A DNA stretch of 64,000 nt from Hymenobacter sp. GOD-10R. GTDB lineage: Bacteria; Bacteroidota; Bacteroidia; Cytophagales; Hymenobacteraceae. The notes beneath the pieces were generated by a model. It worked only from the letters and a program-made list of their open reading frames with translations. It was not told the DNA's origin and made no database searches. A program made the translations under genes and the position numbers. Below, one piece after another: positions 9,410 to 55,483 of the stretch; positions within the stretch are counted from its first letter, which is position 1, and each line of letters opens with the position of its first letter. The DNA is taken from the NCBI RefSeq assembly GCF_035609205.1, contig NZ_CP141184.1, forward strand, positions 3,128,501 through 3,192,500, in the 5' to 3' direction.

Positions 9410-11830
9410 ATGAAACAAAACCACTACCGGATTACGCTGGCGCTGCTGGGGGCCGGGTTGCTGCTGAGTGGCCGCGCCCAGGCGCAGTTGCAGGACATGA
9501 AGCTGCTGAACGCGCCCATCGACATCAGTCCCGATTTTCGCAGCTTCACCAATACGTACTACCTCGCCGACAGCCTCGCCAAATTTGACCCTGCTACCGG
9601 GCGCGGCGAGCTGAAATACCGGCGCTATAACTACTATACCCGGCAGGCTTTCAACAACATGCTGGGCGTGCTGCGCCCCGCAGCAGCCAATGAGTTTCCG
9701 ACTACCGAGTACGCGGTGGCACCTAGCTTGCCCTTTTCGGTAGAGTTTGTGTCGGGGCGCACCGTGCGGATCCGGGCCACGTCGGGGCCGCAGGTGAAGC
9801 CGAACGAGGCCTCGCTGATGCTAGTGGGCGGGCAGGCGCCGGTAGATACGAAGTCGTGGAAGTACCAGAAAGTAGCGGGCGGCCACCAATATACCAGCGC
9901 CGCCGGCTCGGTCACGATTCGGGAGTATCCGTGGCACGTCGAGATTCGCGATGCACAGGGTAAGCTGCTCACCCAAACGATTCACCACCAGGACAATGCT
10001 GAGGCCTCGTACACGCCGGTCGTGCCGTTTTCGTTTGTGCGGCGGGCCGAAGACTACTCGCGCAGCATGTCGGTGGCGTGGTCCTTGGCGCCAGATGAGA
10101 AGATCTTCGGCTGCGGTGAGTCGTTCACGCAGTTCAACAAGCGCGGGCAGAAGGTGGTGCTGTGGGCCGACGACGCCAACGGTGTACAGAACGAGACCAT
10201 GTACAAGCCCATTCCGTTCTTCATGAGCAGCCGCGGCTACGGCATGTTCATGCACACGTCCTCGCCCATTACCTGCGATTTTGGCAAGTACTTCAACGCC
10301 GTCAATTCCTTGCTGATCGGCGACGATGCGTTGGACTTGTTCGTGTTCGTGGGCGAGCCCAAAGACATTCTGAACGAATACACTACCCTGACAGGCAAGG
10401 CTGTGATGCCGCCGTTGTGGTCATTTGGGTTCTGGCAGAGCCGCATCACCTACTTCTCCGAAAAAGATGGCCGCGACGTGGCTGCCAAGCTGCGCGAAAA
10501 CAAGATTCCGGCCGACGTTATTCACTTCGACACCGGCTGGTTTACTACCGACTGGCGCACCGACTACCAGTTTGCGCCCGCCCGCTTCACCGACCCCAAG
10601 AAGATGCTAACCGACCTGAAAAAGGACGGTTTCCATGTGTCGCTGTGGCAACTGCCCTACTTCACGCCCCAAAACAAGCTCTTCCCCGAGCTAGTGGAGA
10701 AAGGCTTAGTGGTGAAGGACGCCAAAGGCAACCTTCCCTACGAAGATGCCACGCTGGACTTCTCTAACCCGCAGACCGTGAGTTGGTATCAGGATAAGAT
10801 TGCCAGTTTGCTGAAGCTAGGGGTGGGCGCTATCAAGGTCGATTTTGGGGAAGCCGCGCCGGCCGTGGGCCTTTACCACTCCGGTAAAACCGGCTTCTAC
10901 GAGCACAATCTGTACCCGCTGCGCTACAATAAAGCCGTGGCCGACGTGACCAAGAAAGTGAACGGCGAAACCATCATTTGGGCGCGCAGCACCTGGGCCG
11001 GCAGCCAGCGCTACCCCCTGCACTGGGGCGGCGACGCCGAAAACACCGACGATGCTATGGCCGCCGAGTTGCGCGGGGGCTTGTCACTAGGGTTGTCGGG
11101 CTTTTCATTCTGGAGCCATGACATCGGCGGCTTCGTGGTGAAAACGCCTGAAAACTTGTACAAGCGCTGGGCCGCCTTCGGTATGCTGACCTCGCACACC
11201 CGCAGCCACGGCGCGCCGCCCAAAGAGCCGTGGGAGTTCAGCGCACAGTTCCTGAAAGACTTCCGCCTAGCCGATGAAATGCGTTATAAGCTCATGCCCT
11301 ACATCTATGCCCAAGCCAAGCACAGCACCGAAAACGGTTTGCCCATGGTGCGGGCGCTGTTCGTGGAGTTTCCGCAGGATGCTGGTTCTTGGCTCGTTGA
11401 CAATGAGTACATGTTTGGCGCCGACATGCTGGTAGCACCTATGTTTGAGTCGGCGCCCGAGCGGAACGTGTATCTGCCCGCTGGCAAGTGGATAGACTAC
11501 CAAACCGGGGAGGTGTACGGCGCGGGCTGGCACCGCCTCAAGCCGGGACCCGTGGAAGCAGTGGTGCTGGTGCGCGATGGAGCCGTCATTCCCCACATCA
11601 AGCTAGCCCAATCCACGATGCAGATGGACTGGAAGAACCTGCAACTAGTTGGCTACTACGCTGATAACCAAGCGCTGAAAGGCTACGTGTGCTTGCCGGC
11701 TGATAACGTGCTGCGCGAAGTAAGCCTAGCCAAGCAAGGCAACGGCCTACAGCTCACCAGCGACCCGCTAAAAGGGAAGGTAACGTGGAAAGTGGAGTCG
11801 AATACGGAGTACGCCAAAGCCGCTCAGTAG
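9410..11830 (+). CDS. GH31 alpha-xylosidase, YicI-like
   Basis: An 806-residue protein with a signal peptide (MKQNHYRITLALLGAGLLLSGRAQAQ). An N-terminal beta-sandwich precedes the barrel, which contains SFGFWQSR, the nucleophile motif KVDFGE (D478), RSTWAGSQRYPLHWGGD with probable acid/base D542, and HDIGGF. A C-terminal beta-sandwich follows. The KxDFGE form is that of YicI-type alpha-xylosidases and differs from the WWMDASEPD form of the GH31 at the window start, so the two are not recent duplicates and may act on different oligosaccharides or in different compartments. It removes terminal alpha-xylose from xyloglucan oligosaccharides (inference). It is co-directional with the rest of the cluster. 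Confidence 0.92.
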   Translation: MKQNHYRITLALLGAGLLLSGRAQAQLQDMKLLNAPIDISPDFRSFTNTYYLADSLAKFDPATGRGELKYRRYNYYTRQAFNNMLGVLRPAAANEFPTTEYAVAPSLPFSVEFVSGRTVRIRATSGPQVKPNEASLMLVGGQAPVDTKSWKYQKVAGGHQYTSAAGSVTIREYPWHVEIRDAQGKLLTQTIHHQDNAEASYTPVVPFSFVRRAEDYSRSMSVAWSLAPDEKIFGCGESFTQFNKRGQKVVLWADDANGVQNETMYKPIPFFMSSRGYGMFMHTSSPITCDFGKYFNAVNSLLIGDDALDLFVFVGEPKDILNEYTTLTGKAVMPPLWSFGFWQSRITYFSEKDGRDVAAKLRENKIPADVIHFDTGWFTTDWRTDYQFAPARFTDPKKMLTDLKKDGFHVSLWQLPYFTPQNKLFPELVEKGLVVKDAKGNLPYEDATLDFSNPQTVSWYQDKIASLLKLGVGAIKVDFGEAAPAVGLYHSGKTGFYEHNLYPLRYNKAVADVTKKVNGETIIWARSTWAGSQRYPLHWGGDAENTDDAMAAELRGGLSLGLSGFSFWSHDIGGFVVKTPENLYKRWAAFGMLTSHTRSHGAPPKEPWEFSAQFLKDFRLADEMRYKLMPYIYAQAKHSTENGLPMVRALFVEFPQDAGSWLVDNEYMFGADMLVAPMFESAPERNVYLPAGKWIDYQTGEVYGAGWHRLKPGPVEAVVLVRDGAVIPHIKLAQSTMQMDWKNLQLVGYYADNQALKGYVCLPADNVLREVSLAKQGNGLQLTSDPLKGKVTWKVESNTEYAKAAQ

Positions 11831-16378: not shown

Positions 16379-16729
16379 ATCAGACAAACGGTCACTTTTT
16401 AAGATGGCACAAACCCTCGTGTGCCTGAATACCTGCAAGCTTATCCCGCTCGTAAATGAAAGTTGTCTTGGGCTAGGTTGTGAAGCAATACCATCTCCGT
16501 AACGGTCCCACGGCGGGGCGTTGCTGGTATATGCGCGGCGTGTCGTTGACGCTATCTTTTGCAGCCAACCCTGGTGCGTACCGCTTACCCCAGATGCGAT
16601 GCCCGGTCATTCGTCCTAAGTAACTACGTGCCATGGGGTGTTCACCCCTTTTTTCGGCTGGCTCACCCCATTTTTGCCCAGGGCGTTACCTGCCTACCTA
16701 GCTTTAGCTCTCCCTTCAACGAGCAAGCT
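16379..16729. other. Intergenic region upstream of the LytS-type kinase
   Basis: About 350 bases between the hairpin and the kinase start. The kinase frame is open back to 16559, but the extra 57 codons look like non-coding translation. TATCTTTTG at 16553-16561 is a loose match to the Bacteroidota -7 element without a well-placed -33 partner. Nothing else recognised. Confidence 0.4.
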
Positions 16730-18274
16730 ATGTCCCCTTCCCGTACCACTACTTGGTTAGAAGCCGGGGTTGCCCTCGCTGCTATCACCCTCTACGTGAC
16801 CGCCTATTTGCTGCGCGAAGCTGCCGCCACCCACGCGTTGTGGCGGCAGGCTGCGAGCGTGGCACCAGCCGCCGCGCTCGAGCGGAGCATGGCCGTGTAC
16901 CAGCAACCCACCCACACGCTGCTACCGGTGTTGGCCGGCGCCGGGTTGCTCTTGCTGGCTTGGGTAACCAGCCACTACCTCGCCTTGCCGCGCCTCACCA
17001 AGTCAGTGGGGGCTACTGGCACCCTGTACATGATGCTGAGCTTGCTGCTGCTGTTCGGCAGCGTGTGGGTGGCGCACTACTTCAAACTGTATTTGCGTTT
17101 GCAGTACAATCAGCTCGGAGCGATTACGGGCTTGAAAGTTTATTCACTCTACCGCTCCAAAACTCTATTCGCGGACTGGGTAGCAGCCGGTATTGGTTTA
17201 GGAGTCTACGAGTTGCTTGGCCAGCTTTTGCAGTACGTACGCCAGCGGCTGCCCCTGGCGACAGAAGCCGGGGTGCGCTATGCTTACCGGGGGTTAGTCA
17301 TCGGCTTGGTGGTACTGGGCTTAACCCTGGCCTGGACGGTGCCGCTGCCGCCCACGCTCTGGGACCCCCAAACGGGGCCTTGGTTGCTGCTGGCTGGGCT
17401 AGGTTTACTGGTCATGGTGTTGCAGGCACTCGCGTATCCACTGCTCACGGCGTTGCGGATAGCAGGACTTTCTAGGCGCTGGGTATGGAGAATCGCCTGG
17501 TGGGGGAGCCTAGCCCTACTCGGCTCAACCGTGCTGTGGGTCGCCTATAGTTCGCGCTACCCGGTGGCGCTGCGGCCGCTGGCGGGCTTGTGGGGGCTGG
17601 TAATGCTGGTCTCGAGCCTAGTGGTGGTCGTACGCCAGGGGATAGCGCAGGAAACGACCTCGTTGCAGGCGCAAGCCTCGCACAGCCTCGCTGAGCTAGC
17701 CGGGCTGCGGGCCCAAATTAACCCGCATTTTCTCTTCAATGCGCTTAATAGTCTGTACGCTACTGCTTTGCAGGAAAGCAGCGATAAAACTGCTGAAGGG
17801 ATCCAGCAGTTGGGCGAGATGATGCGCTTCTTACTCGAAGAAAATAACCGGGACCGTATTCTGCTCCAGCAGGAAGTACACTACCTGCGCCGCTACATCG
17901 GGCTCCAGCGGCTCCGACTAGACGAGACCCAGGGCCTCGACATCCGCATCAACCTGCAGGAACCTGAGCAGGAAGTATATCTAGCTCCGATGCTGCTGAG
18001 CCCATTCTTGGAAAATGCCTTTAACCATGGCATTAGCTTTCAGGCTCCTTCCTGGATTCATATTACGCTGACGCTGGATGCCACGCACCTGTATTTCAAG
18101 GTGCACAACTCGCTGCATCCGCGTGCCCCGCAGGCCGCGGCCGCCCCGACGCCGCAAGTGGGCCTGGAAAACGTGCGCAAGCGCTTAGCGCTCCTCTATC
18201 CCGGCCGCCATCAACTGGAAATCCAACAATCCCCGCAAGACTATTTCGTAGCTCTCACCCTGCTACTCTGGTAG
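16730..18274 (+). CDS. LytS/YehU-type sensor histidine kinase
   Basis: A 514-residue membrane sensor kinase. ATG at 16730 is chosen over the in-frame upstream TTG at 16559 because it leads directly into the first membrane segment. There are several transmembrane helices in residues 10-300 (about six to eight). The His_kinase domain carries AQINPHFLFNALNSL with the phospho-acceptor H333. The ATPase domain has NAFNHGISF and the G-box VGLENVRKRLALLYP. This is the kinase type that pairs with LytTR regulators, one of which is encoded two genes downstream at 19953. The sensed signal is unknown. A serine hydrolase gene starts 104 bp later and separates the pair. Confidence 0.9.
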   Translation: MSPSRTTTWLEAGVALAAITLYVTAYLLREAAATHALWRQAASVAPAAALERSMAVYQQPTHTLLPVLAGAGLLLLAWVTSHYLALPRLTKSVGATGTLYMMLSLLLLFGSVWVAHYFKLYLRLQYNQLGAITGLKVYSLYRSKTLFADWVAAGIGLGVYELLGQLLQYVRQRLPLATEAGVRYAYRGLVIGLVVLGLTLAWTVPLPPTLWDPQTGPWLLLAGLGLLVMVLQALAYPLLTALRIAGLSRRWVWRIAWWGSLALLGSTVLWVAYSSRYPVALRPLAGLWGLVMLVSSLVVVVRQGIAQETTSLQAQASHSLAELAGLRAQINPHFLFNALNSLYATALQESSDKTAEGIQQLGEMMRFLLEENNRDRILLQQEVHYLRRYIGLQRLRLDETQGLDIRINLQEPEQEVYLAPMLLSPFLENAFNHGISFQAPSWIHITLTLDATHLYFKVHNSLHPRAPQAAAAPTPQVGLENVRKRLALLYPGRHQLEIQQSPQDYFVALTLLLW

Positions 18275-18378
18275 CCTAGCTTGCCTGAAAACGAACCGCC
18301 TCTCGGACCTAGAAAATTCTGAGGCCTAGGTCGCAGTTGCCTAACCTCTTCATCTCCTCAACGTCAACTCACTGCACC

Positions 18379-19929
18379 ATGCCCAAATACTATCTGCTTA
18401 TTCTCATTCTGTTCGGTGGGCTGCTGGGCCCGCCGACCCAGGCCCAGCGCCGGGAAGTTCAGCTGGATTCCCTGTTTCAGCAGCTCGCCCGCGCAGGGCG
18501 TTTCAACGGGGGCGTGCTAGTGGCCGAGAAGGGGCGCATCCTCTACCAGCGCGCCTTTGGCTACGCCAATTTGCCCACGCGCACTCCGAATACGGTGACC
18601 TCTCGTTTTCAAGTGGCGTCCATCGCCAAGATTTTTACGTCCACGGCCGTATTGCAGCTGTGGGAGCAAGGCAAAATCAAGCTCGGCGACCCACTGGTGC
18701 ATTATCTACCTAGCTTTCCGTACCCCTCCGTCACGCTGCGGCACTTGCTCACGCACACCTCCGGGCTGCCCGACTTGGAGCTGTATGACCCGCTGGTACG
18801 CCAGCATCCCGAGCATCTTGTCACCAACTCCGACATTATTCCGGCCCTGCGGGCCTGGCAGCCAGGGCTCTACTTTGCACCTGGCAAGAAGTGGCAGTAT
18901 TGCAACACCAATTATATCCTGCTAGCGCTGCTCGTCGAAAAGGTGAGTCAGCAGCCGTTTGCGGCCTACCTGCGACGTCACATCTTCCGGCCCGCCCGCA
19001 TGGCAGACACTTACCTACGTTCCCCCGCTAGCCCCGCCGATGCTCGCCTCGTGACCAACCACCTGCTGCCGACCATGTACAGCACCGTGCCGGAGCCGGT
19101 CGAAAACGTTCAGCTCAAGGATAGTGTCCGGCGCTGGCATCTGCGTTTCGAGAGCAGTGGTCTAACCGGGCTTTACGGGCCGGGTCAGGTCGTGAGCACC
19201 CTGCCAGACTTGCTCCGCTTCGACCAGGCCTTGTCCGGCGGCAAGCTCCTGCGCCCCCGCACCGTGGCGCTCGCCGCCACCCCGGCCAAGCTCAACGACA
19301 GCACCACGGTCATTGGCGGGAATACCGTCGATTTTGGCGGTCCTACCTCGTACGGCCTCGGTTGGGTAGTGCGCCCAGATCCGACAGGGGGCGACATTGT
19401 CGGCCACGATGGCTACAACCGGGGCATTGCCACGATGCTCTACCGCAACGTGCAGACGGGGCAGACCGTTATCCTGTACGATAACACTGAAGGCGAGCAG
19501 TTCCGCGAGAAGGTGGCGGCCATCATCGACGTGCTCCATCAACAGCCTGTGCGGCCGCTGCCTTACAGGAAATCCGCCGCTCGCTGGTACGGGGCAGCGC
19601 TGCTGCAAGAAGGCCCGAGCCCGGCTTTGATTGCGTTGAACACCATGCGGGCCGACACGGCGCACTACTATGTGGTCGAAGAAGAACTAAACAGCCTAGG
19701 GTATGCTCTATTGGCAAACGGCTACCTTTCCCAGTCGCTGGAAGCTTTTCGCCTAAATACCGTACTTTTCCCGACCAGCTTCAACGTGTACGATAGCTAC
19801 GGGGATGCTTTTCGCCAGGCCAACCGCCGAAGCGAAGCCATTCTGATGTACCAGCGGGCGCTGGTGCTGAACCCCAACAGCGAAGGCAGCAAACGTTCGC
19901 TGCACCTGCTGCAAGCTCCTGCCCACTAA
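18379..19929 (+). CDS. Secreted serine hydrolase (beta-lactamase/PBP-like) with TPR tail
   Basis: A 516-residue protein. ATG at 18379 starts a signal peptide (MPKYYLLILILFGG...TQAQ); an in-frame TTG at 18337 is less likely. The class C beta-lactamase-type fold has the SxxK motif SIAK (S81, K84) in RFQVASIAKIF, the YxN motif as YCN in WQYCNTNY, and HTSGLPDLE. The third motif region is VGHDGYN. The last 90 residues contain two TPR-like helical repeats (SLGYALLANGYLSQSLEAF and YQRALVLNPNSEGSK). Such proteins are D-amino-acid peptidases or esterases; the substrate is unknown. It lies between a LytS kinase and a LytTR regulator, 23 bp before the latter, so it is probably co-transcribed with them. 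Confidence 0.87.
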   Translation: MPKYYLLILILFGGLLGPPTQAQRREVQLDSLFQQLARAGRFNGGVLVAEKGRILYQRAFGYANLPTRTPNTVTSRFQVASIAKIFTSTAVLQLWEQGKIKLGDPLVHYLPSFPYPSVTLRHLLTHTSGLPDLELYDPLVRQHPEHLVTNSDIIPALRAWQPGLYFAPGKKWQYCNTNYILLALLVEKVSQQPFAAYLRRHIFRPARMADTYLRSPASPADARLVTNHLLPTMYSTVPEPVENVQLKDSVRRWHLRFESSGLTGLYGPGQVVSTLPDLLRFDQALSGGKLLRPRTVALAATPAKLNDSTTVIGGNTVDFGGPTSYGLGWVVRPDPTGGDIVGHDGYNRGIATMLYRNVQTGQTVILYDNTEGEQFREKVAAIIDVLHQQPVRPLPYRKSAARWYGAALLQEGPSPALIALNTMRADTAHYYVVEEELNSLGYALLANGYLSQSLEAFRLNTVLFPTSFNVYDSYGDAFRQANRRSEAILMYQRALVLNPNSEGSKRSLHLLQAPAH

Positions 19930-19952
19930 GTAAGTAGCCCCTTCTTGCCCCG

Positions 19953-20642
19953 ATGCTCACCGCCCTAGCTATCGACGACGAACCGCAGGCCCTGCGCGTG
20001 GTGCAGCTGCTAGCCGCCAAGGTCCCCTTCCTGGAGTTGCGGGGCAGCTTCACAAATGCCTTCACGGCCCTCGCTTTCCTGCAAGCCCACCCCGTGGATG
20101 TGCTCTTCGTGGACATTCATATGCCCGACCTGACAGGCGTGGAGTTGGTGCAGGGGCTTTCCCGGGCACCCCTCATCATCTTCACCACGGCCTACTCCGA
20201 CTACGCCGTACAGGGCTTTGAACTTGACGCCGTTGATTACCTGCTCAAGCCCTTTTCCCTGGCGCGGTTCACCAAAGCCTGTGCTCGGGCGCTGGAACGA
20301 CAAACCGCGCGGGGTAGCGCCAGTAGCCCCAGCATTTTGGTAAAAACCGGCTACGAAGAGGAGCGATTACGGCTCCACGATATCCTGTACCTGGAAGCCG
20401 ACGGCAACTACCTGACGTATGTGCTACCAACCCGGCGGGTACTCATGCGTCAAACCCCGGCTGACGCGTTGCGGCAGCTACCCGCGCCGTACTTCGTGCG
20501 GGTGCACCGCTCCTATATTGTGGCCGTGGAGAAGGTAGAAAAAATAGCGCGCCAAGAAGTGACTGTCGCGGGTACGGCTATCCCGATTGGGGCTTCTTAC
20601 GAAAGCGCCGTACAGCTCCTGCGTGCCCGCTTCAGTCGATAA
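19953..20642 (+). CDS. LytTR-family response regulator
   Basis: A 229-residue two-domain regulator. The receiver domain (1-120) has the acidic pocket IDDEP, phospho-acceptor D54 in LFVDIHMPD, a Thr in IFTTAYSDYA and the Lys in LLKPF. The LytTR DNA-binding domain (about 130-229) has LRLHDILYLEADGNYLTYV and FVRVHRSYIVAVEKV. It lies 23 bp behind the serine hydrolase and is the natural partner of the LytS-type kinase at 16730. LytTR proteins bind short direct repeats; target sites here are unknown. Confidence 0.93.
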   Translation: MLTALAIDDEPQALRVVQLLAAKVPFLELRGSFTNAFTALAFLQAHPVDVLFVDIHMPDLTGVELVQGLSRAPLIIFTTAYSDYAVQGFELDAVDYLLKPFSLARFTKACARALERQTARGSASSPSILVKTGYEEERLRLHDILYLEADGNYLTYVLPTRRVLMRQTPADALRQLPAPYFVRVHRSYIVAVEKVEKIARQEVTVAGTAIPIGASYESAVQLLRARFSR

Positions 20643-39275: not shown

Positions 39276-39379
39276 ACGCCCCAAGGTGAGAAACCTAGGG
39301 CTGCTTCAAAGGTTACCCAAGGTACGTAAACAACAGCAGGGTACCTAGCGCCCAGGCAAGCATGTGGTGACGGGAAGCG

Positions 39380-39534
39380 CTAGTTTTCAGCGGTTTGCTT
39401 CTCCGGCCGCTTTTTGCTGTCAATCACGACCGCCTGCCAGCGCCCGTCACGCTGCACCCACACGGCCAGCATTTCCAGCGTCGAGGTGACGGCGTGACTG
39501 GTCTTGTCCTTCTCCGCAAATTTCTTTTCATGGC
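39380..39534 (-). pseudogene. C-terminal fragment resembling an NTF2/SnoaL-like (DUF4440) protein
   Basis: A frame ending with a stop at 39380 reads SHAVTSTLEMLAVWVQRDGRW then QAVVIDSKKRPEK. The pattern of a strand ending in VWVQRDGRWQAVVIDS is like the last two strands of DUF4440 domains. There is no start codon with matching upstream sequence, because the DUF418 gene begins its C-terminus at the same place. It looks like a leftover 3' end. Confidence 0.35.
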
Positions 39535-42298: not shown

Positions 42299-42441
42299 GA
42301 TTTAGAGCCGAATACAGGTAACCTTGAATAGCTTTTAGAAGGAGTGCTTCAGGGCTGATAGTGGCTAGGTTACTCAGCCCGTTTCATGCGACGCGTAGGC
42401 AGGTGCCCTAGGGCCAGGCTAATAGCTAGATGCGCGGTGGT

Positions 42442-42884
42442 TTACACCGCGTTCAGGTTGAGCTGACCCGTTAGGCCCAGGCCCAGCGTGTGGAAGGCTA
42501 CGACAAAGCCTTGCACTTGCAGCGGCACGTCCACGGTGGTCTGGTACTTATGCTCCTGGCTACTAGGTGTAAAAAACTTCCCGCTTGGTAGGTGTGCACC
42601 CGCACTAGTCCCAGGCCCGCCGAAACCGTGACCAACGTGGTCTGGCCTGCGAAAACCTTTCCGCCTAAGACGTAATATGAACTCAAGCTGACTTTCTCGC
42701 CGCTGCTGAAATCCAGCAAGCCACTGTTGCTGTCGTAGCTGTAGCCGGCTGACGCTAACCACTGCCGCCGGAACTCCACATGTCCAGTTAGAGTACCACC
42801 CATTGCATTGCCTAGGCTACTGAGACCTGCGCCTCCATCCAACCAAAAATGACGGTACTTCGCCGGCTTGCTGGACGTTTGCCT
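42442..42884 (-). pseudogene. Broken gene for a beta-barrel-like outer-membrane protein
   Basis: One frame reads KYRHFWLDGGAGLSSLGNAM and continues LTGHVEFRRQWLASAGYSYD to GLGLVRVHTYQ; a second frame then continues GKFFTPSSQEHKYQTTVDVPLQVQ and GFVVAFHTLGLGLTGQLNLNAV to a stop at 42442. The change of frame falls in the run at 42571-42584 (A6 then TTCCC). The beginning is also lost: a stop in the same frame lies at 42885-42887 and no signal peptide is present. Alternating strand-like segments with Gly suggest a small barrel of unknown function. A base-calling error in the A6 run could explain the frameshift but not the missing 5' end. Confidence 0.5.
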
Positions 42885-43053
42885 TCAGCACGCGCCGCAC
42901 ACGCTGAAGAGTAATAAGGTGCCACTGGCGAAAGCCCAGAATGGTAAGCAGTTTGTTCGCATCATCCCAGTAGTTCAAAAAGAAGTGGGTGACCGAGTGT
43001 AGCGCCTTACGCAAACTAAGGCGGAGCCGCACCTGCGACCACAGTTAGCTTCG

Positions 43054-43861: not shown

Positions 43862-46852
43862 ATGCTCATGAAAATACGTCGCATTATTTGCTTGCTAGGC
43901 GGGCTGCTAAGCTGGGCGCTGACGAGCAGGAGTCAGGACTTGAACGTCGTCCCTCTCCAGGTGACGCAAGTCGAATCCGACACGATGCAGCGCCTAGGCC
44001 GAGGAAACAGCTGGCGCTACCAACCCGGCCAGCCACCGGGTTGGGCCAGTCTCACCACCGACGACCATACTTGGCCGCTGGAGAGTGCAGCTTTTTCCTT
44101 TGGGGAAGGCCCGCCGGGGTGGCGCGGTACGGGCTGCTTCCGCATCCGCTTTACCCTAGATTCGGCGCTGTTGAACCGCCCATTAGGATTGCGCATCCTA
44201 CAAGATGGAGGTTCGGAGGTGTACTTGGATGGGCACTGGTTGGGCGGCTACGGAAAGGTAGGGGCGTCGGCGGCTACCACGCAGCATGAGCGGGTCCGCT
44301 TCCAGCCCCTCGTGTTTATGTGCACGACGGCGGGCCCTCATTTGCTGGCCATCCGTTACGCTAAATTCGATCCGTGACCACCGCCCTACGGAGGCTTTTC
44401 ACTACGAGTTGCAACCGCCGAGCGGCTCATTGCCGCAAGCGTAGCGCAGGTACGGCTTGGCGATATCAATTTCATTGCCGTTACGGGTACGGCGGTGCTA
44501 GCGCTGCTACACTTTTTTCTTTATCTATTCTATCCACTGCGACGGGCTAATCTGTATTTCAGCCTTTACATGGCCTCGGCTTCGGCTACGAGCCTGCTGG
44601 TATACCTGCGGTGGGTGGCGACCGGTATGCAGGCGCATTGGCGGGCTGAACTCGGCTTTACAATCGGCTCGTTGTTGGGTGGCATGCTGCTGCTGACCTT
44701 TGTGTATTCGGTCTGTCGAATTACCCTCTCAAGACGCTGGCTGACCGGAGTAGGACTAGCTCAGGCCTGCTTACTAGCCGCATGGTTAATGCGGCCAGAT
44801 TGGACCCTGACGTCGGTAGCACTCGGCCTGAGCTTGGTGCTATGGCTGGATATGTTCCGGGTGATAGCCCAGGCGATGCGGCAGCACCAACCCGGTATCT
44901 GGCTGGTAGCACTCGGCACATTTGGCGCATTGCTGGTACCCTTTATTGCCAACGGCGTATGGAGGAGTGGCCCGTTTGATGTGGCCCAACAGCTTATGCT
45001 GCAATCGTGCTTGTTGCTGCTGCCCATTTGCATGTCGGTGTATCTGGCACGTGAGTTTGCCGCCACCCGCCGCGACCTGGAAGCGCAGTTGCGGCAGGTG
45101 GCCCAACTCTCGGCCCAGACCCTAGCTCAACAAGCCGAGAAGCATCAACTCATCAGCGCCCAGAATGATCGCCTAGAAGCTACCGTGCAGGAGCGTACGG
45201 AAGAAATCAGCCAGCAAAACCACATCTTAGCGGCCCAGCGCGACGAGATAACGGCCCAAGCTGACCGCCTGCGGGCGCTCGACCAAGAGAAGACCCGCTT
45301 TTTTACCAACATCACCCACGAGTTTCGCACGCCGCTTACGCTCATGCTAGGGCCAGCTGCCCAGATTGCTGCCGACACCCAGGAGCCCACCACCCGCCAG
45401 CAGGCCACGCTGGTGGAGGGCAACGCCCGGCGCCTGTTGCATCTGGTCAACCAGCTGCTCGACCTGAGCCGCCTCGAAGCGGGCCAGCAGGCCTTGCACG
45501 CCACTCCCGGCGACTTGGTCGGTTTTGTGCGGGGCTTGGTGGGCTCGTTCGAGTCCCTGGCCCAGCAGCGCGGTATTGCCTATTCGTTTACGGCCGAGCC
45601 GGCCGAATTATGGGGGCGTTTCGACGCCGACAAGCTAGAAAAAGTAGTGGTGAACCTGCTCTCGAATGCCTTTAAGTTCACACCTAGCGTCGGCGAAGTT
45701 ATGGTCCGGCTGCACGCGGCGCCTCCGGTTCCGGGTACACCGACGTGGGTGGAGTTGACGGTGCGCGACACCGGCCGCGGTATTGCGGCGGCCCACTTGC
45801 CCCACGTTTTTGACCGATTCTATCAGGCCGACGCTTCCAGTACCCGCGAGTACGAAGGCACCGGCATTGGCTTGGCATTGACCAAGGAGCTAGTCGAGTT
45901 GCACGGCGGCACCATCGCCCTTACCAGTGAGCCCGGCTGCGGCACCACCGCCGTTGTGCGCCTTCTGCTGCCGCACGCGGAAGAAACCGTAGCGGCTGTA
46001 TCCAACGAACCCGCCGGCGCTTATGCTGCGACGGCCATATCGGAATTAACCACCCAGCAGGCTTCTCTTCCGACCGAAGCCGCACTGGAAGCGCCCTTAA
46101 TTCTGTTGATCGAAGACAATGCCGACATGCGGGCCTACGTCAGCACAGTACTCGAACAGGACTATCAACTGCTCACAGCCAAAGATGGCGAAGAAGGCGT
46201 CGTCCTAGCGTGCGAACACCTGCCTGACCTCGTACTCACCGATGCTATGATGCCTCGCCTCGACGGTTACGGCGTATGCCGAGAACTCAAGCACGACGAG
46301 CGTACCAGCCATATTCCCATTGTTTTACTCACGGCTAAAGCCGACCTACCCAGCAAGCTCCACGGCCTGGACACCGGCGTCGATGCGTACCTGACCAAAC
46401 CTTTCCAGCGTGCCGAACTGCTGGCCTAGGTGCGCAACTTGCTGCACGGCCGTCAGCGGCTGCAAGAGGCGTACCGCCACAGCCTTGCAAACCCACCCCC
46501 ACCCGGCCCGCCTACCATAGAGCAAGTATTTCTAGAGCGGGTGCGGCAAGCCGTGGAAGGAGCACTAGATAACGAAAACTTCGATGTGGAAGCCCTCGCC
46601 CGCGAGCTGGCCCTGAGCCGCACCCAGTTGCACCGCAAGCTCAAGGCCCTTATCGGCCAAGCGCCCGGCGACTTCATCCGGTTGGTACGGCTTCAACGCG
46701 CCTATGACCTGCTGGTAAGTGGAGCCGTCACCGTGGCCGAAGTGGCTTACCAAGTTGGGTACAGCAATCCGAATAATTTCTCTACCAGCTTCGCACGCCA
46801 GTTTGGCTGTGCACCAAGCGAGGTTCGGCGCCGCCACGTAGGAGCCAAGTGA
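43862..46852 (+). pseudogene. Hybrid sensor kinase/AraC regulator interrupted by two in-frame stops
   Basis: One reading frame runs from ATG 43862 (or 43868) to the stop at 46850 with no frameshift, broken only by TGA at 44375 and TAG at 46427. Reading through them gives about 996 residues: a signal peptide; a periplasmic jelly-roll (FSFGEGPPGWRGTGCFRI, VYLDGHWLGGYGKVG); 7TMR-DISM-type membrane helices (from ALLHFFLYLFYPL); a coiled coil; HisKA with TNITHEFRTPL; HATPase with NLLSNAFKF and GTGIGLAL; a receiver with LIEDNADMR, Asp in LVLTDAMMP and Lys in YLTKPF; and an AraC-type HTH (AYQVGYSNPNNFSTSFARQFG). Between the first stop and the next ATG the translation (YGGFSLRVATAERLIAASVA) still looks like protein. 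Both stops are one C-to-T change from CGA and CAG. It may be a recent pseudogene, a base-calling artefact or, less likely, a recoded gene. Confidence 0.8.
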
Positions 46853-47432: not shown

Positions 47433-50400
47433 CTAGTTGATCACTAACCTTTTGGTGATAAGCCCCTGTTTGATGATAATACGTAGGTTATACACGCCCA
47501 CGGGTAGGGAGTCCACTTGTACTTCCAGTTCTTGTTGGGTTGACAATGGCTGTTGTAGTACCACCTGTCCGAGTGAGTTAAGTATTTGTACCTGGTAATG
47601 TTGCTGGGTTAGCTCAATGGGCAGTTGCACGTGTACGCTCGCATGCGCTGGGTTTGGGTAGAGGCTTACCTGCTCACTCAGGCGGGCGGGAGCCGCCGCC
47701 AGCACCTTGACCTGCGCCGTTGCTGCTACGCTGCTCAGGCGTACGCTGGCCGAATTGGTGCTGCTATTCGCTGTGAGCAGGTCTAGCGTGCCGTTACCAT
47801 CCAGATCCGCTAAAGCTAGGCTGAAGGGCCCCGTGCCCACGCTTACTTCCTGTGTGCCCTGAAAATTACCATTGCCTAGATTCAGGCGCACGCTCACCGT
47901 GTTGCTGCCGGTGTTGGCCGTAGCCAAGTCTAGGTCGCCGTCGCCGTCTATGTCGCCTACGGCAATACCGTGCGGCTCAGCACCTACAGCCAGTAGCTGC
48001 GTGCTGGTGAAGGTGCCGCTGCCATTGTTCAGGCATACGCTGGCCTTGCTGGAGACGCGGTTCGCTACGGCTAGGTCTAGGTCGCCATCGCCGTCTACAT
48101 CGCCAAATACGATAGACTCGGGGTTGAATTCCACCTGTACTTCGGTGCCGCCCGAGAAGTTACCAAACCCATTGTTCAGGCGCACGCTGGCCGTGCTGGT
48201 GTTGGAGTTGGCCGTCACAAAGTCCAGGTCGCCGTCATTGTCCACGTCGCCCACGGCGATGCTCAGCGGGCGCGTGCCCACGCTCACGTCTGGGGCAGCG
48301 ATGTTAAAGGAACCTAGGCCGTCGTTCAGGCGCACGCTCACGGTGCTGCTGGTAGTGCTACTGCTGGTGGTGTAGTTAGCGGCAAGTAAGTCTAGGTCGC
48401 CGTCGCCATCCACGTCGCCCAAAGCTACAGCGTGCGGCGTGTCGCCAACGGGTACCTCGATGCTGCCGGAGAAGCTGCCTGAACCGTTGTTTAGGCGCAC
48501 GCTCAGCGTACCAGGGAAAATGGTGCGGCTATTGGCCGTAATCAGATCTAGGTCGCCATCGGCGTCCACGTCGCCGAGCACCACTTGCGAGGGGCCACGC
48601 CCGACGCTAACTTCCTGCGTGCCGTTGAAGGTGCCGGAGCCGTTGTTCAGGCGTACGCTCACCGTGTTGCTGTTGAGGTTGGCCGTGAGCAGATCCTGGT
48701 CGCCGTCGCCATCAATGTCGCCGGCCGCTACGCCATAGGGGTTCGCGCTAACGGTCGGGTTAGAGCCGCCGCTGAAGCCACCGTTGCTGGGCGCAGTAGC
48801 CGCCGTAAACTGGAACACATGCGGCTGGGCCAAGGTAGCGCCGCTGCTGCTGCGCACAGTCTGTGTGACAGTGGCAAACGCCGTTTCGCCCGGCTTGAAG
48901 CTGATGGCTGGCGCCAGGCGCAGGATATTGCCGCTCACGCTGTTCGACCCAAACTTACGACCGCTCTGCGTGCCAAAGACTCGGATAGACTGCTCCGTTA
49001 CTGGGTCAGAACTGAGGGGCAGGTTGAAGGTGAAGGTAACGGGCGTGGTGCGCGGGGCTACCACCGCGTTGCGGGCCGGCAAAACACCCGTTACCACAAA
49101 CTGGGCTTGGTTTAGGCGCACGCTCACGGAGTTGCCATAATAATTAGCAGCGAGTAAATCCAAGTCGCCGTCGCCGTCCACGTCACCCACGGTCAAGCGC
49201 TGCGGATAGTTACCCACGCCTACTTCCTGGCTACCCGAGAAGGAGCCGTTGCCATTATTGAGGCGCACGCTCACGCTGGTGTTCGGGGTAGCGGCTAGCA
49301 AGTCCAAGTCGCCGTCGCCATCCACGTCGCCCAGGACCACGTCGAGTGGCTTGGCACTCACGGCTATTGGCTGGCCGCTTGAGAAGGTGCCGCTACCGTT
49401 GTTGAGCCCTAGGCTTACGCGACTATTCTCGAAATCGGCCGTCACAAAATCCAGGTCACCATCCTTGTCCACGTCGCCCAGTACGATACTACCTAGGGCC
49501 GCATCCACGGGTAGCGTCTGCCCAGTGTTGCTGAAGGTGCCGTTGCCCGTGTTAAGGCGCACGCTCACCGTACTTAGATTGTTGGATAAGTTGGCCGTGA
49601 GCAGGTCCAGGTCGCCGTCATTGTCCACGTCGCCTACGGTCAAGTTGCCCGGACCGGCGCCTACGGTTACTTCCTGCGTGCCACTGAAGGTGCCCACGCC
49701 GTTGTTCAGACGCACACTCACCGTGCTTCTATCCGCATTAGCTGTGAGCAAGTCCAGGTCACCGTCGGCATCCACATCGCCGAGTACTAGGCCGAGGGGG
49801 TTCGTGCTGTTAACAACTATTTCGTCGGAGCCGCTGAACACGCCTCTCCCGTTGTTGAAGCGCACGCTCACGGAGCCGTAGTTAGCATTTACGGTGAGCA
49901 AATCTAGGTCACCGTCGCTGTCTACGTCACCTAGTACGACGGCAGTGGGGCCAAATCCGACACTTACCTGCTGGCCGCTAGTGTAGGTCCCATTACCATT
50001 ATTGAGGCGCACGCTCACAGCATTGCCACTCACGGTGGCGAGCAAATCCAGGTCGCCGTCACCGTCCACGTCGCCTGTCGTCACTCCACTGACGTAAGAT
50101 CCCACTGGGACGTCGGTGCCGCTGCCGAAGGTGCCCGGCGCGGCGCTGGTAGCCGTCGTAAACCGGAATACCTGACCGGTCATCAGGCTAGCGCCGCCAC
50201 TGCTCTGCACTGCCGTGGTAAGGGTGGCAAACACAGTTTCGCCTGGTTTGAAACTAGCCGTAGGAGCAAAGCTGAGCGTATTGCTGCTCACCGTGGCCGT
50301 GCCAGTTTTCTGGCCGCCAGCCTGGGCGCTGAACACCTTGAGCGCACCTAGGGTAGGCTCATTAGGAATAAGATTTTGGTTAAACGTAACGGCCACCGGC

Positions 50401-53400
50401 GTAGCACGGGGCGCGGCCACCGCATTGCGGGCTGGGGCTGCGGCCGTCACGAGCAATGGAATCGCCGCGGCTTGGTTCAGGCGCACACTCAGAGTGTTGC
50501 CGAGAAAGTTGGCTGTCGCCAGGTCCAAGTCGCCGTCGCCGTCGAGGTCGGCTAAAGCTAGGTTGTTGGGGCTGTTGCCCACGGCTACTTGCTGATTGCC
50601 GGAGAAGATACCGCTGCCGTTGTTCAGGCGCACGCTGGCCGTATTCGTGAGTTCGTTGGTAGCCAATAGGTCCAGGTCGCCGTCGCCGTCCACGTCGCCC
50701 AGCACGGCTTGGCGGGCGCCCCGGCCGATAGCTACGTTTTGGGTGCCGTTAAAGAAGCCATTGCCGTTGTTCAGACGCACGCTGGCGGTGCTGTTGGTGT
50801 AGTTGTTGGCGGGGTTGGTGTAGTCGTAATAATTAGCCGTCACCAGATCGAGGTCGCCATCTTTGTCTACGTCGCCGAGCACTACACTCATGGGGTTGAA
50901 GCCCACAGCCACTTCCTGCGAGCCGCTGAAAGAACCTAGGCCATTGTTGAAGCGCACACTGGCGGTGGCCCCGTTGGAGCTAGACGTCACAAAGTCTAGG
51001 TCGCCATCATTGTCCACGTCGCCTAGGGCAATGTTCAGGGGCCGCGAGCCAACTGAGACACGCCGCGCATTAGCAAAGTTGAACAAAGGGAACATGCCCG
51101 TGCCGTTGTTCAACCCCACCGTCACGGTGCTGGGCTCATTGTAGTCCGCAATCAGTAGGTCCTGGTCGCCGTCGCCATCCACGTCGCCTACGGCAATACC
51201 GTGAATATTGCCGCTGCCTACCAGAAAGCCCGTATCGAAGTTGCCGCTGCCGTTGTTAAAGCGCACGCTCACATCGGCGCTGCTGCTGTTGGCCGTGAGC
51301 AGATCCAAGTCGCCGTCGTTGTCTACGTCAGCCAGCACGGCCTGAGCGGGGCCGCGACCTACGGTAAGCTGCTGGGCATTGGTAAACGTGCCGTTGCCGT
51401 TGTTTAGACGCACGGTGGCGGTGGTACCATTGCCAAGGCCAGCAGGACCGCTGGGATTACCTAGGTTTGTGGTTATCAGGTCGAGGTCGCCGTCGCCGTC
51501 TACGTCGCCACTGGCTACGTTCACGGGGCCGTTGCCCACGCTGGGGTCGGAACCTCCGTTGAAAGTGCCGGGACTAGGAGCCGTGGCAGTGGTAAACTGA
51601 AATACCTGCGGCACCAGTAGATTCTGGGTGGTGCCGCTATTCTGCACGGCTGTTGTAGTAGTCGCAAACACCGTCTCGCCCGCTTTGAAGTCGGCACTAG
51701 GATCGAAGGTGAGCGTGTTGCCGCTCACGGTCGCCGTGCCCGGTTTCTTACCCTGGGCTTGCTGGCTGAACACCGTCAGGGCACCTAGGGTCGCGGCGCC
51801 GTTGTTTAGCGGCTGGCTGAGCGTAACGGCCACCGACGTGTTCCGTGGTGCGGTCACCGCATTGCGGTTAGGTACCAAGTTCGTAACCGTTAGCAGCGGC
51901 CCCACCGTGAACTGGAAGCCATTGCTGACGCCCGTTGCTGTCGCCACGACTACCGGGCCGCTGGTAGCGCCGGCCGGGACGGTCACTGTAATCTGGGTAC
52001 CTAGGCCATTCACGACAAAGCTCGGCGCCGTTACACCATTGAAGGTAATGCCGGTCGTATTCAAGAAGTTAGTGCCGTTAATCACCACGGTGCTGCCCAC
52101 CGGGCTGATAGATGGCGCTATGCTGGTAATGCTAGGTCCGGCTAGAATCTGGTTGAGGCGGATGCTCACCGACTGACTGAAGCCGTTAGCAACTGCCAGG
52201 TCTAGGTCGCCGTCGCCATCCACGTCGCCTAAGGCTAGGTCGCGGGGGTTCAGACCCACGGCCACGTTCTGGTTACCCGAAAAGACGCCGCTGCCGTTGT
52301 TCAGGCGCACCGCTACAAAGCCGTTGCTGATGCTGGCCGTGAGCAGATCCAGGTCGCCGTCGCCATCTACGTCGCTCAGCTTCACCCGATACAGGCCGTC
52401 GGTCAGGGATACTTCCTCCGTGCCGGAGAAGTTGCCCAGGCCATTGTTGCGGCGCACGCTCGCGGTGATTCCGTTGGTGTTAGCGGCCACAAAATCCAGG
52501 TCGCCGTCGCCATCAATGTCGCCTAGGGCAAGGCTGCCGACTAAGAGGCCACTAGGTACATTCTGGGTGCCGGAGAAGACGCCGCTGCCATTGTTCAGGC
52601 GCACCGATACCGTGCCGTCGAGGCTGGTCGTAGCCAGTACATCCAGGTCGCCGTCGTTGTCTACGTCGCCCAGGGCTACGTCGCCCGGCTGCGAGCCAAC
52701 TGTTACCTCCGAGCCGCTGCTGAAGATGCCGCTGCCATTGTTCAGGAACACGTTGAGCTTGTTGGTAGTACCGCTCGTTTGCGACACTACCATGTCGAGG
52801 TCGCCGTCGCCGTCCACGTCGCCGAACGCCAGGGTAAACGCGTTAGTTGGAGTTTGTACTTCCTGAATACCGCTGAAGGCACCGCTGCCATTATTAAAGC
52901 GAATGCTCACGGTGTTGGCTCTGCCATTGCCGGTGGCAAAATCCAGGTCGCCGTCGCCGTCCAGGTCGCCCAGCACAATGCTCTCTGTTTCGGGAGGGGC
53001 TATTGCACCGGGGCCGTTGCCCACGGGCACCGTGGAACCGGCGCTGTAGGTGCCGGTGCCATTGTTTAGGCGCACGCTCACGTTGTTGCCGTCGGGGTTA
53101 CCAAACTCGCCGTTGGCCGTGAGCAGGTCCAGGTCGCCGTCGCCGTCCACGTCGCCTAGGGCCACGCCCATGGGGTTGCCGTTTATGGCTAGGTCGGTGC
53201 CGCCCGTGAAGGTGCCGGGGGCCGGTGGCGTGGCAGTAGTAAACTGGAAAACCTCCGCCTTAGGCAGGGTGCCATTGCTGCTTTGCACGGCCGTAGTCAG
53301 GGTGGCAAACACCGTTTCGCCGGGCTTGAAGTCGGCGGTGGGGTTAGCCGTCAGGGTGTGGCCACTCACGGTTACGGAGCTGGCTTTCAGTCCGCCGGCC

Positions 53401-54989
53401 TGCTGGCTGAATAGCTTCAGCGCACCTAGAGTCGCTGCGTTGTTGGTCAGCGGTTGGTTGAAGGTTACAGCTACGTTGGTGTTACGCGGGGCCGAGCGGG
53501 CATTGCGAGTGGGGGAGAGGGCCGTGACGGCCGGGGTAGTGATGTTCTGATTCAGATATATTTTCGCCCCCGTAGCGCTGGACCCGAGCAGATCTAGGTC
53601 GCCGTCACCGTCTATATCGGCAAGCTTGCTGGCCGAGAATGGCAGGGTCCTGATGCCGCTAAACGTACCGTTGCCATCGTTCAGGCGCACGTACATGCCC
53701 TGGGCAGTGCTACTTGAAATCAGCAGATCAATATCGCCGTCACCATCTAGGTCGCCGCTAGTCAGCCCGGGAATGTACGTACCCCCGGCATCAAAAACGG
53801 AGCTGCGGCTGAAGGTACCCGCGCCATTGTTGAGCAAAACTTCCACTTCACCGTAGCCCGCATTAACCAGATCCAAGTCGCCGTCGGCGTCCACGTCGAT
53901 CAACCTAGCTAGGTAAGGGAGCAGCAGCAAACTTGTAATGCCCGTGGTACCGAGGTTGAACGTGGCATTGCCGTTGTTGAGCGCGATGCCGGTGGCGCCG
54001 TTCCCCCGCTCAATGCCAAAGAGCACATCAATGTCGCCGTCGTTGTCGATGTCGCCGGCCGTGTAGCCAGTGATGCTGCGCACGGTTGAGTCGAAGGTGG
54101 TGCTGGTGCTGAAGGTGCCGTTGCCGTCGTTCAGGCGCACGAAGATGCCGTTGCCGAAAGTGAATAACAGGTCTAGGTCGCCGTCGGCATCCATGTCATA
54201 CAAGCTAGGTGCCGTTGCCACATAGGCTTGGAAGCTGCTACTCTGGCTGAATGTACCCAGGCCGTTGTTCAGGTAGGTAGTCGTGCCGAACACGAAATCC
54301 AGATCACTGTCGCTGTCTAAGTCGCCGAGCAAGAGGTTGCTACCCAAATCGTTGACTACAATTTCCTGGTTGCCGCCGAAGGTGCCCGTGCCATTGTTCA
54401 GGCGTACAAACACCGAAATAGTATTCTCCGGGCTGTTTAAGCTAATCTTGAGCAGGTCCAGGTCGCCGTCGCCATCTAGGTCGCCGGTCGCTAGGTCGCC
54501 GCCGTTGGTCCCAGCCACTACGTCCGGGCCGTTCGCGAAAGTGCCGGTACTAGGGCTGGTAGCGGTGGTGAATTGAAAGACCTGCGGCTTGGCTAAAGTT
54601 ATACCGCCACTGCTTTGCACGGCACTTGTAACGGTAGCAAACACGGTTTCGCCTGCCTTGAAGTCAGAGCTAGGGTCGAAGGTGAGCGTGTTGCCGCTGA
54701 CGGTCGCTGTGCCCGCTTTCTTGCCGCCGGCCTGCTGGCTGAATACCTTTAGCGCCTGTTGGGTGGCCGGGCTGGTACTCAGCGATTGATTGAACGTAGC
54801 AGCCACGTTGGTTGTGCGTGGGGCCGAGGGCGTATTATGTGTTGGCGACCACGCCGTGAGCATGGGCGCTTGGGCGCGGCCAATGCTGACAGTCCCTAGT
54901 AGCATTAGCCCGGCACTTAGCCAACGGGAGACTCGAATAGCCAGCCTTTTGACCGCTACGTGCGATAGAAGAATAGAAGTAACAAGCAT
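47433..54989 (-). CDS. Giant secreted FG-GAP protein: five Ig-like plus seven-repeat modules, T9SS tail
   Basis: 2518 residues. ATG at 54989 is chosen (MLVTSILLSHVAVKRLAIRV, leading to SAGLMLLGTVSIGRAQA); the frame is open 19 codons more. Five modules follow. Each begins with an SbsA-type Ig-like domain (recurring APRxTxVAVTFNQPL, GTATVSGNTLTFDP, FKxGETVFATxTxAVQSS, QVFQFTTAT) and continues with seven FG-GAP/VCBS repeats (GDVDGDGDLDLLTAN, SVRLNNGSGTFSG). The DxDxDG loops should each bind Ca2+. An IPT/TIG domain (ITSIAPSISPVGSTVVINGTNF) lies between modules 2 and 3. The last 80 residues (VSLYPNPAHASVHVQL to GLITKRLVIN) are a T9SS sorting domain. Integrin-type propellers have seven FG-GAP blades, so each module may be a complete propeller. 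Function is unknown; adhesion or extracellular matrix is plausible. Confidence 0.9.
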   Translation of the reverse strand: MLVTSILLSHVAVKRLAIRVSRWLSAGLMLLGTVSIGRAQAPMLTAWSPTHNTPSAPRTTNVAATFNQSLSTSPATQQALKVFSQQAGGKKAGTATVSGNTLTFDPSSDFKAGETVFATVTSAVQSSGGITLAKPQVFQFTTATSPSTGTFANGPDVVAGTNGGDLATGDLDGDGDLDLLKISLNSPENTISVFVRLNNGTGTFGGNQEIVVNDLGSNLLLGDLDSDSDLDFVFGTTTYLNNGLGTFSQSSSFQAYVATAPSLYDMDADGDLDLLFTFGNGIFVRLNDGNGTFSTSTTFDSTVRSITGYTAGDIDNDGDIDVLFGIERGNGATGIALNNGNATFNLGTTGITSLLLLPYLARLIDVDADGDLDLVNAGYGEVEVLLNNGAGTFSRSSVFDAGGTYIPGLTSGDLDGDGDIDLLISSSTAQGMYVRLNDGNGTFSGIRTLPFSASKLADIDGDGDLDLLGSSATGAKIYLNQNITTPAVTALSPTRNARSAPRNTNVAVTFNQPLTNNAATLGALKLFSQQAGGLKASSVTVSGHTLTANPTADFKPGETVFATLTTAVQSSNGTLPKAEVFQFTTATPPAPGTFTGGTDLAINGNPMGVALGDVDGDGDLDLLTANGEFGNPDGNNVSVRLNNGTGTYSAGSTVPVGNGPGAIAPPETESIVLGDLDGDGDLDFATGNGRANTVSIRFNNGSGAFSGIQEVQTPTNAFTLAFGDVDGDGDLDMVVSQTSGTTNKLNVFLNNGSGIFSSGSEVTVGSQPGDVALGDVDNDGDLDVLATTSLDGTVSVRLNNGSGVFSGTQNVPSGLLVGSLALGDIDGDGDLDFVAANTNGITASVRRNNGLGNFSGTEEVSLTDGLYRVKLSDVDGDGDLDLLTASISNGFVAVRLNNGSGVFSGNQNVAVGLNPRDLALGDVDGDGDLDLAVANGFSQSVSIRLNQILAGPSITSIAPSISPVGSTVVINGTNFLNTTGITFNGVTAPSFVVNGLGTQITVTVPAGATSGPVVVATATGVSNGFQFTVGPLLTVTNLVPNRNAVTAPRNTSVAVTLSQPLNNGAATLGALTVFSQQAQGKKPGTATVSGNTLTFDPSADFKAGETVFATTTTAVQNSGTTQNLLVPQVFQFTTATAPSPGTFNGGSDPSVGNGPVNVASGDVDGDGDLDLITTNLGNPSGPAGLGNGTTATVRLNNGNGTFTNAQQLTVGRGPAQAVLADVDNDGDLDLLTANSSSADVSVRFNNGSGNFDTGFLVGSGNIHGIAVGDVDGDGDQDLLIADYNEPSTVTVGLNNGTGMFPLFNFANARRVSVGSRPLNIALGDVDNDGDLDFVTSSSNGATASVRFNNGLGSFSGSQEVAVGFNPMSVVLGDVDKDGDLDLVTANYYDYTNPANNYTNSTASVRLNNGNGFFNGTQNVAIGRGARQAVLGDVDGDGDLDLLATNELTNTASVRLNNGSGIFSGNQQVAVGNSPNNLALADLDGDGDLDLATANFLGNTLSVRLNQAAAIPLLVTAAAPARNAVAAPRATPVAVTFNQNLIPNEPTLGALKVFSAQAGGQKTGTATVSSNTLSFAPTASFKPGETVFATLTTAVQSSGGASLMTGQVFRFTTATSAAPGTFGSGTDVPVGSYVSGVTTGDVDGDGDLDLLATVSGNAVSVRLNNGNGTYTSGQQVSVGFGPTAVVLGDVDSDGDLDLLTVNANYGSVSVRFNNGRGVFSGSDEIVVNSTNPLGLVLGDVDADGDLDLLTANADRSTVSVRLNNGVGTFSGTQEVTVGAGPGNLTVGDVDNDGDLDLLTANLSNNLSTVSVRLNTGNGTFSNTGQTLPVDAALGSIVLGDVDKDGDLDFVTADFENSRVSLGLNNGSGTFSSGQPIAVSAKPLDVVLGDVDGDGDLDLLAATPNTSVSVRLNNGNGSFSGSQEVGVGNYPQRLTVGDVDGDGDLDLLAANYYGNSVSVRLNQAQFVVTGVLPARNAVVAPRTTPVTFTFNLPLSSDPVTEQSIRVFGTQSGRKFGSNSVSGNILRLAPAISFKPGETAFATVTQTVRSSSGATLAQPHVFQFTAATAPSNGGFSGGSNPTVSANPYGVAAGDIDGDGDQDLLTANLNSNTVSVRLNNGSGTFNGTQEVSVGRGPSQVVLGDVDADGDLDLITANSRTIFPGTLSVRLNNGSGSFSGSIEVPVGDTPHAVALGDVDGDGDLDLLAANYTTSSSTTSSTVSVRLNDGLGSFNIAAPDVSVGTRPLSIAVGDVDNDGDLDFVTANSNTSTASVRLNNGFGNFSGGTEVQVEFNPESIVFGDVDGDGDLDLAVANRVSSKASVCLNNGSGTFTSTQLLAVGAEPHGIAVGDIDGDGDLDLATANTGSNTVSVRLNLGNGNFQGTQEVSVGTGPFSLALADLDGNGTLDLLTANSSTNSASVRLSSVAATAQVKVLAAAPARLSEQVSLYPNPAHASVHVQLPIELTQQHYQVQILNSLGQVVLQQPLSTQQELEVQVDSLPVGVYNLRIIIKQGLITKRLVIN
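47757..54540 (-). repeat. 35 FG-GAP coding repeats in five sets of seven
   Basis: Counting DxDxDGDxD loops in the translation gives seven per set: set 1 about 53550-54540, set 2 about 52140-53215, set 3 about 50470-51570, set 4 about 49105-50150, set 5 about 47757-48780. Each repeat is about 60-65 residues. Sets are separated by Ig-like domains (and one TIG domain at about 51900-52140). At DNA level the repeat unit GTCGCCGTCGCCGTC...AGGTC recurs throughout. Confidence 0.88.
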
Positions 54990-55483
54990 AACACGAACAG
55001 GAAATAAGGTGGAAAGGAAGTAAATATGCCCTCTATTCACCAGCACACCTCTTCCCTCGCGGAGGCTCTATGAATATAATAATATCTAAAATAAGATCAA
55101 ATTTTTAATGGATTAGTTATAATATATTGCTAAAATCAATCTTGTTTCCTTATAATGTTCTATAGTGCATTAAAAAGAAGGCATCTCACCTAGGCGATAG
55201 CAGTGTCACCGAGACCGCCGCCGCGTAATGCAAGCCGTGCTACTAGGACCGGATGATCCCACTGGGCAATTCTTCGGTCAGGAGGCGGGGTCGGACCGAA
55301 ACCCTTGGTGACAAGCAAGTGCACGCGTAGTGCGTGCCGGCCGAGATAGAGGTGTTCCCCTAGTTGTTCGACACAACTCTATCATAAGCTTCCCGATCGT
55401 ACAAGCCAGCCTGTAGGAACGGGAAGGTTACTAAAAGCGCACAGCAAAAAGCTTTAGGCAGAAGTTACATGCTAAGAACGCCC
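54990..55483. other. AT-rich upstream region and possible transposase fragment
   Basis: Bases 55070-55160 are very AT-rich and probably contain the promoter of the giant repeat gene. From about 55385 to the stop at 55190 the minus strand reads EQLGEHLYLGRHALRVHLLV and then RRIAQWDHPVLVARLALRGG, a 60-odd residue protein-like frame without a clear start; it may be the end of a decayed transposase or other gene. Not identified. The IS begins at 55484. Confidence 0.35.

Follow-up and report, generated by a model that had tools for sequence, protein, structure and literature searches.

The hybrid two-component systems (HTCS) of Bacteroides are the closest described systems to the gene considered here. 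In these systems (PMC11253607), a histidine kinase, a receiver and an AraC-type HTH_18 domain lie in one reading phase, and these features are shared by a gene at positions 43862-46852 (+) of the window, by which we mean the whole 64,000-nucleotide stretch analysed (C1:3128501-3192500 of Hymenobacter sp. GOD-10R, whose genome comprises 7.5 Mb in seven contigs). Compared with these systems, the chain encoded in the window differs in being cut by two in-frame stops and in having an N-terminal part that lacks a Pfam family. The uninterrupted polypeptide that characterises an HTCS is encoded by the orthologue in Hymenobacter crusticola and not by the window gene. Among the titles and opening lines of abstracts consulted, we recognised no work on this gene. 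We believe, with a probability of about 0.74, that it is an accessory HTCS-like regulator gene that became a pseudogene very recently.

Translation from the initial ATG to the terminal TGA proceeds in a single phase of 996 residues, with zero frameshifts and no internal stops other than the two listed in Table 1, around which the frame falls into three pieces.

Table 1. Features of the interrupted regulator gene (window coordinates).
Feature	Position	Strand	Remark
N-terminal piece, 171 residues	43862..44374	+	Pfam match absent
In-frame stop 1 (TGA), residue position 172	44375..44377	+	
Middle piece, 683 residues, with putative membrane part, kinase and receiver	44378..46426	+	
HisKA domain	45290..45484	+	Pfam, middle-piece residues 305-369
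HATPase_c domain	45623..45970	+	Pfam, middle-piece residues 416-531
Mosaic boundary: similarity to H. crusticola drops from >90% to <80%	45750..45902	+	
Response-regulator receiver domain	46100..46423	+	Pfam, middle-piece residues 575-682
In-frame stop 2 (TAG), residue position 856	46427..46429	+	Receiver end; GTG immediately 3'
C-terminal piece, 140 residues, with AraC-type HTH_18	46430..46849	+	
AraC-type HTH_18	46595-46834	+	Pfam, C-terminal piece
Terminal stop (TGA)	46850..46852	+	

The first-pass annotation had described frames in the same phase with no frameshift in 3 kb, and a sequence that still reads as protein across each stop. Both statements hold up well. The translation and a DNA alignment with H. 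crusticola that is free of gaps in the gene interior agree with the former, and the continuity of the frame cannot be put down to chance, because an orthologue with 91% identity over residues 1-996 passes both sites in one open frame. The same annotation had let the second frame begin at 44378, directly after stop 1; an open reading frame proper would begin instead at GTG 44495, the nearest common start codon, which lies 39 codons 3' of that stop.

Each of the four domains scores above its Pfam cut-off, and their order (HisKA-HATPase_c-receiver-AraC HTH) is that of an HTCS-like hybrid regulator. With an X read at both stops, the domains follow one another as in a single-chain regulator. Judged by its domains, the gene is an HTCS-like one-chain hybrid two-component regulator for which a phosphorelay and DNA binding are predicted. 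Residues 1-171 match zero Pfam families at E<=0.001, and only the H. crusticola protein (P0001) gives a match to 7TMR-DISM_7TM, a weak one that falls below the cut-off.

A homologue search of 120 Hymenobacter genomes, the host's own included, yielded 21 matches in 17 genomes at E<=1e-200, and given this distribution the gene looks accessory. The window match is alone among the 21 in being interrupted, by one TGA and by one TAG. Among the other 20, 5 are partial and 15 cover both stop positions, with stops in none of these 15. The nearest relative is the H. crusticola gene (P0001, L010/L062), which has the same domain order and is open throughout, although its last third is much more diverged from that of the window gene than the remainder is. 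Comparison with orthologues had been proposed at the outset as a check, and its outcome is one open frame in H. crusticola and stop-free relatives wherever both sites are spanned. Inactivating changes thus stand beside intact orthologues, as is typical of a pseudogene. The idea that orthologues might be naturally separate genes was also rejected, since those examined run unsplit and no divided example was seen among them. The window genome holds one copy of the gene, and H. crusticola has a second copy, which is located on a different contig from the first.

The residues that occupy the two stop columns in relatives can be read from a closer alignment of 12 of the 29 other loci (L010-L021), a mixture of orthologues and paralogues, some genomes carrying two copies. 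All 12 loci are open through both columns with sense codons at each, encoding Trp (11) or Arg (1) at stop 1 and Gln (11) or Thr (1) at stop 2. Wider counts were made on 66 proteins drawn from the best 120 of 1091, namely P0001-P0067 minus the window's own P0003, with P0068-P0120 excluded as partial or distant. In column 1 these have 44 Trp, 12 Tyr, 9 other residues and 1 gap, and column 2 contains Gln in 56, Thr in 9 and His in 1. For the 51 closest proteins (to P0052), the tallies are 44 Trp, 3 Arg, 3 Gly and 1 Ala in the first column and 42 Gln and 9 Thr in the second. The first-pass derivation of stop 1 from CGA is not supported, because the column is mostly Trp both in these 51 homologues and in the aligned loci.

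The gene is also a mosaic. In steps of 40 codons, identity to H. crusticola is 92-99% to codon 640, 84% at codons 641-680 and 70-88% beyond, and dS is 0.117 for codons 1-640 versus 0.918 for codons 681-996. Elsewhere, dS is 0.17 and 0.22 for two neighbouring genes, 0.10 and 0.04 for two short upstream open reading frames, the second of which lies in a gene remnant, and 0.36 for a release-factor gene, which we take to be prfA. By BLAST, the window resembles the H. crusticola locus from 39062 to the gene end at 46852. In FastTree trees of 60 rows built separately from the first and last gene parts, the window and H. crusticola genes are sisters in both, grouping with P0004 and P0005 in the first-part tree (support 1.0) and with P0002 in the last-part tree (0.95). 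Given these groupings and the contrast in dS, one of the two lineages probably acquired its last third through recombination with a relative outside the sample. No donor of this segment was found; the top DNA matches reach 78% (H. crusticola) and 74% (the next species), and the second H. crusticola copy is no closer to the window's last third. The boundary falls between the two stops. Such a mosaic suggests that recombination reshuffles long modular kinases within the coding frame.

We assigned the differences between the window and H. crusticola genes to branches by using 11 outgroup loci. Over codons 1-640, where dN for the pair is 0.016, the window branch has 10 synonymous changes, 5 nonsynonymous changes and 1 stop, and the H. 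crusticola branch has 15 synonymous and 11 nonsynonymous changes, with 34 of the 76 differences assignable to neither branch. The branch ratios are not different (Fisher p 0.74). With the neutral nonsynonymous share set by hand at 0.72, neutrality is rejected for the window branch (p 0.002). Codons 681-996 give 19 synonymous and 18 nonsynonymous changes for the window versus 33 and 29 (p 1.0), with 106 differences unplaced. Relaxed constraint was therefore not detected on the window branch, which lacks a nonsynonymous excess, and a very young break would not be expected to leave a detectable trace of it. Selection thus acted on the gene until recently. The changes accumulated after it separated from H. 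crusticola show purifying selection for most of that time, so that both stops have to be of recent origin.

The very young pseudogene was one of three options raised in the first-pass annotation, and it fits best given the intact orthologues, the absence of a missense excess, the accessory character of the gene and a copy that looks broken in another species. Under this interpretation, a one-chain hybrid regulator was inactivated very recently through two nonsense changes. Translation would stop after residue 171, which would detach the putative N-terminal sensor part from the kinase, the receiver and the DNA-binding domain, and an internal start might at best provide either an AraC domain on its own or a kinase-receiver protein that lacks the N-terminal part. 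The accessory nature of the regulator, which has strong matches in a minority of the genus, would explain why its loss is tolerated. The other apparently broken copy belongs to the same gene family and is found in Hymenobacter sp. CA2-7 (L111 7404-10477), where two overlapping frames change over at the His box. Its break is a frame change rather than a pair of nonsense codons and may be a draft error. If our interpretation is correct, an accessory regulator has been caught while being lost, before visible decay, in a genus with at least one other broken-looking copy. Apart from the mosaic, this would be an ordinary event of genome evolution.

The observation of two stops with no accompanying missense excess is somewhat unusual, as about 20 missense changes per nonsense change are expected in this gene under neutrality, and this leaves room for sequence error. 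If one or both stops were mistakes of base calling or assembly and the true gene were intact, the lack of any other decay would be explained. However, two separate substitution errors would have to occur within one gene, and other genes look clean, with stops rare inside conserved domains. In the host genome, internal stops are present in 2 of 101 receiver matches, one being this gene, and in none of 59 HisKA and 50 ABC_tran matches. The other receiver match (G000:C5:38960-39292, (-) strand, one TAA) is possibly another broken gene. A scan for same-phase pairs of open reading frames across 264 kb comprising the window and its surroundings scored 251 pairs, of which five passed; one is the TAG of this gene, whose TGA was missed. 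Three of the other four were judged by eye from their translations to be neighbouring genes, and the fourth is short, lies on the (-) strand at window position 10237 and is not protein-like. A stricter scan passed just one of the three neighbouring-gene pairs and missed both stops of this gene. No further convincing broken gene is thus present among the pairs that passed this non-exhaustive 264-kb scan. Because stops are so uncommon within the other genes examined, a systematic base-calling artefact is unlikely, and we regard an error of any kind at these sites as clearly less likely than a pseudogene.

The remaining proposals would let the interrupted gene make a useful product. Near-cognate decoding can place Trp at UGA and Gln at UAG. 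If both stops were leaky or were read through in a programmed way by this means, the cell would insert the residues common in orthologues at these columns and yield some full-length protein, in keeping with the purifying selection that is still visible. Even so, neither stop is found in any relative spanning the sites, there are sense codons in all the aligned loci where a recoded stop should be conserved, and Trp and Gln codons are in any case expected to turn into stops by single-step changes. A tRNA search returned 40 matches, with 150 of 207 candidates scored, and ARAGORN applied to the surrounding stretches gave 41 tRNAs. None of these 41 has a stop-reading anticodon, in a list that is incomplete, lacking for example the expected Ala-TGC and Ile-GAT, so that a suppressor tRNA may have been missed. 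The abstract of PMC13092985 links a 4-bp anticodon stem of tRNA-Trp to UGA reading; the tRNA-Trp of this genome is not of that form, as ARAGORN draws it with six anticodon-stem pairs and the tRNA-Gln with five. The three RF-1 family matches are stop-free inside. A recoded genome as a general rule was rejected, given how rarely the conserved domains examined are interrupted, and the readthrough or recoding option of the first-pass annotation finds no support in the same data. We therefore consider readthrough very unlikely. We give slightly less credence still to the idea that the double-nonsense allele remains productive because low-level near-cognate decoding rebuilds the ancestral protein; if true, both stops would be a dimmer on a one-chain regulator rather than a kill. 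The most doubtful proposal is a functional split via internal starts, for example by reinitiation at the GTG that adjoins the TAG, a stop that sits where the receiver match ends. None of the orthologues examined is divided in this manner, a common start codon is reached at the earliest 39 codons past the TGA, and a free AraC piece would be without a receiver.

Several other features of the neighbourhood were recorded. The protein encoded at 47433-55046 (-) has 2537 residues, with FG-GAP repeats, Big_5 domains and a Por_Secre_tail sorting domain, and no counterpart turned up in the part of the H. crusticola contig used for comparison. At about 42340-43050 (-) lies an older gene remnant, broken by stops and frame changes here as well as in H. 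crusticola. Window positions 16637-20632 match, at 74-80%, H. crusticola DNA that ends about 2 kb before its second kinase-family copy. About 190 bases at 39290-39480 are missing from the H. crusticola locus, and two further Hymenobacter loci, L195 and L191, contain part of this stretch (39379-39487) at 84-86%, perhaps as a small dispersed repeat.
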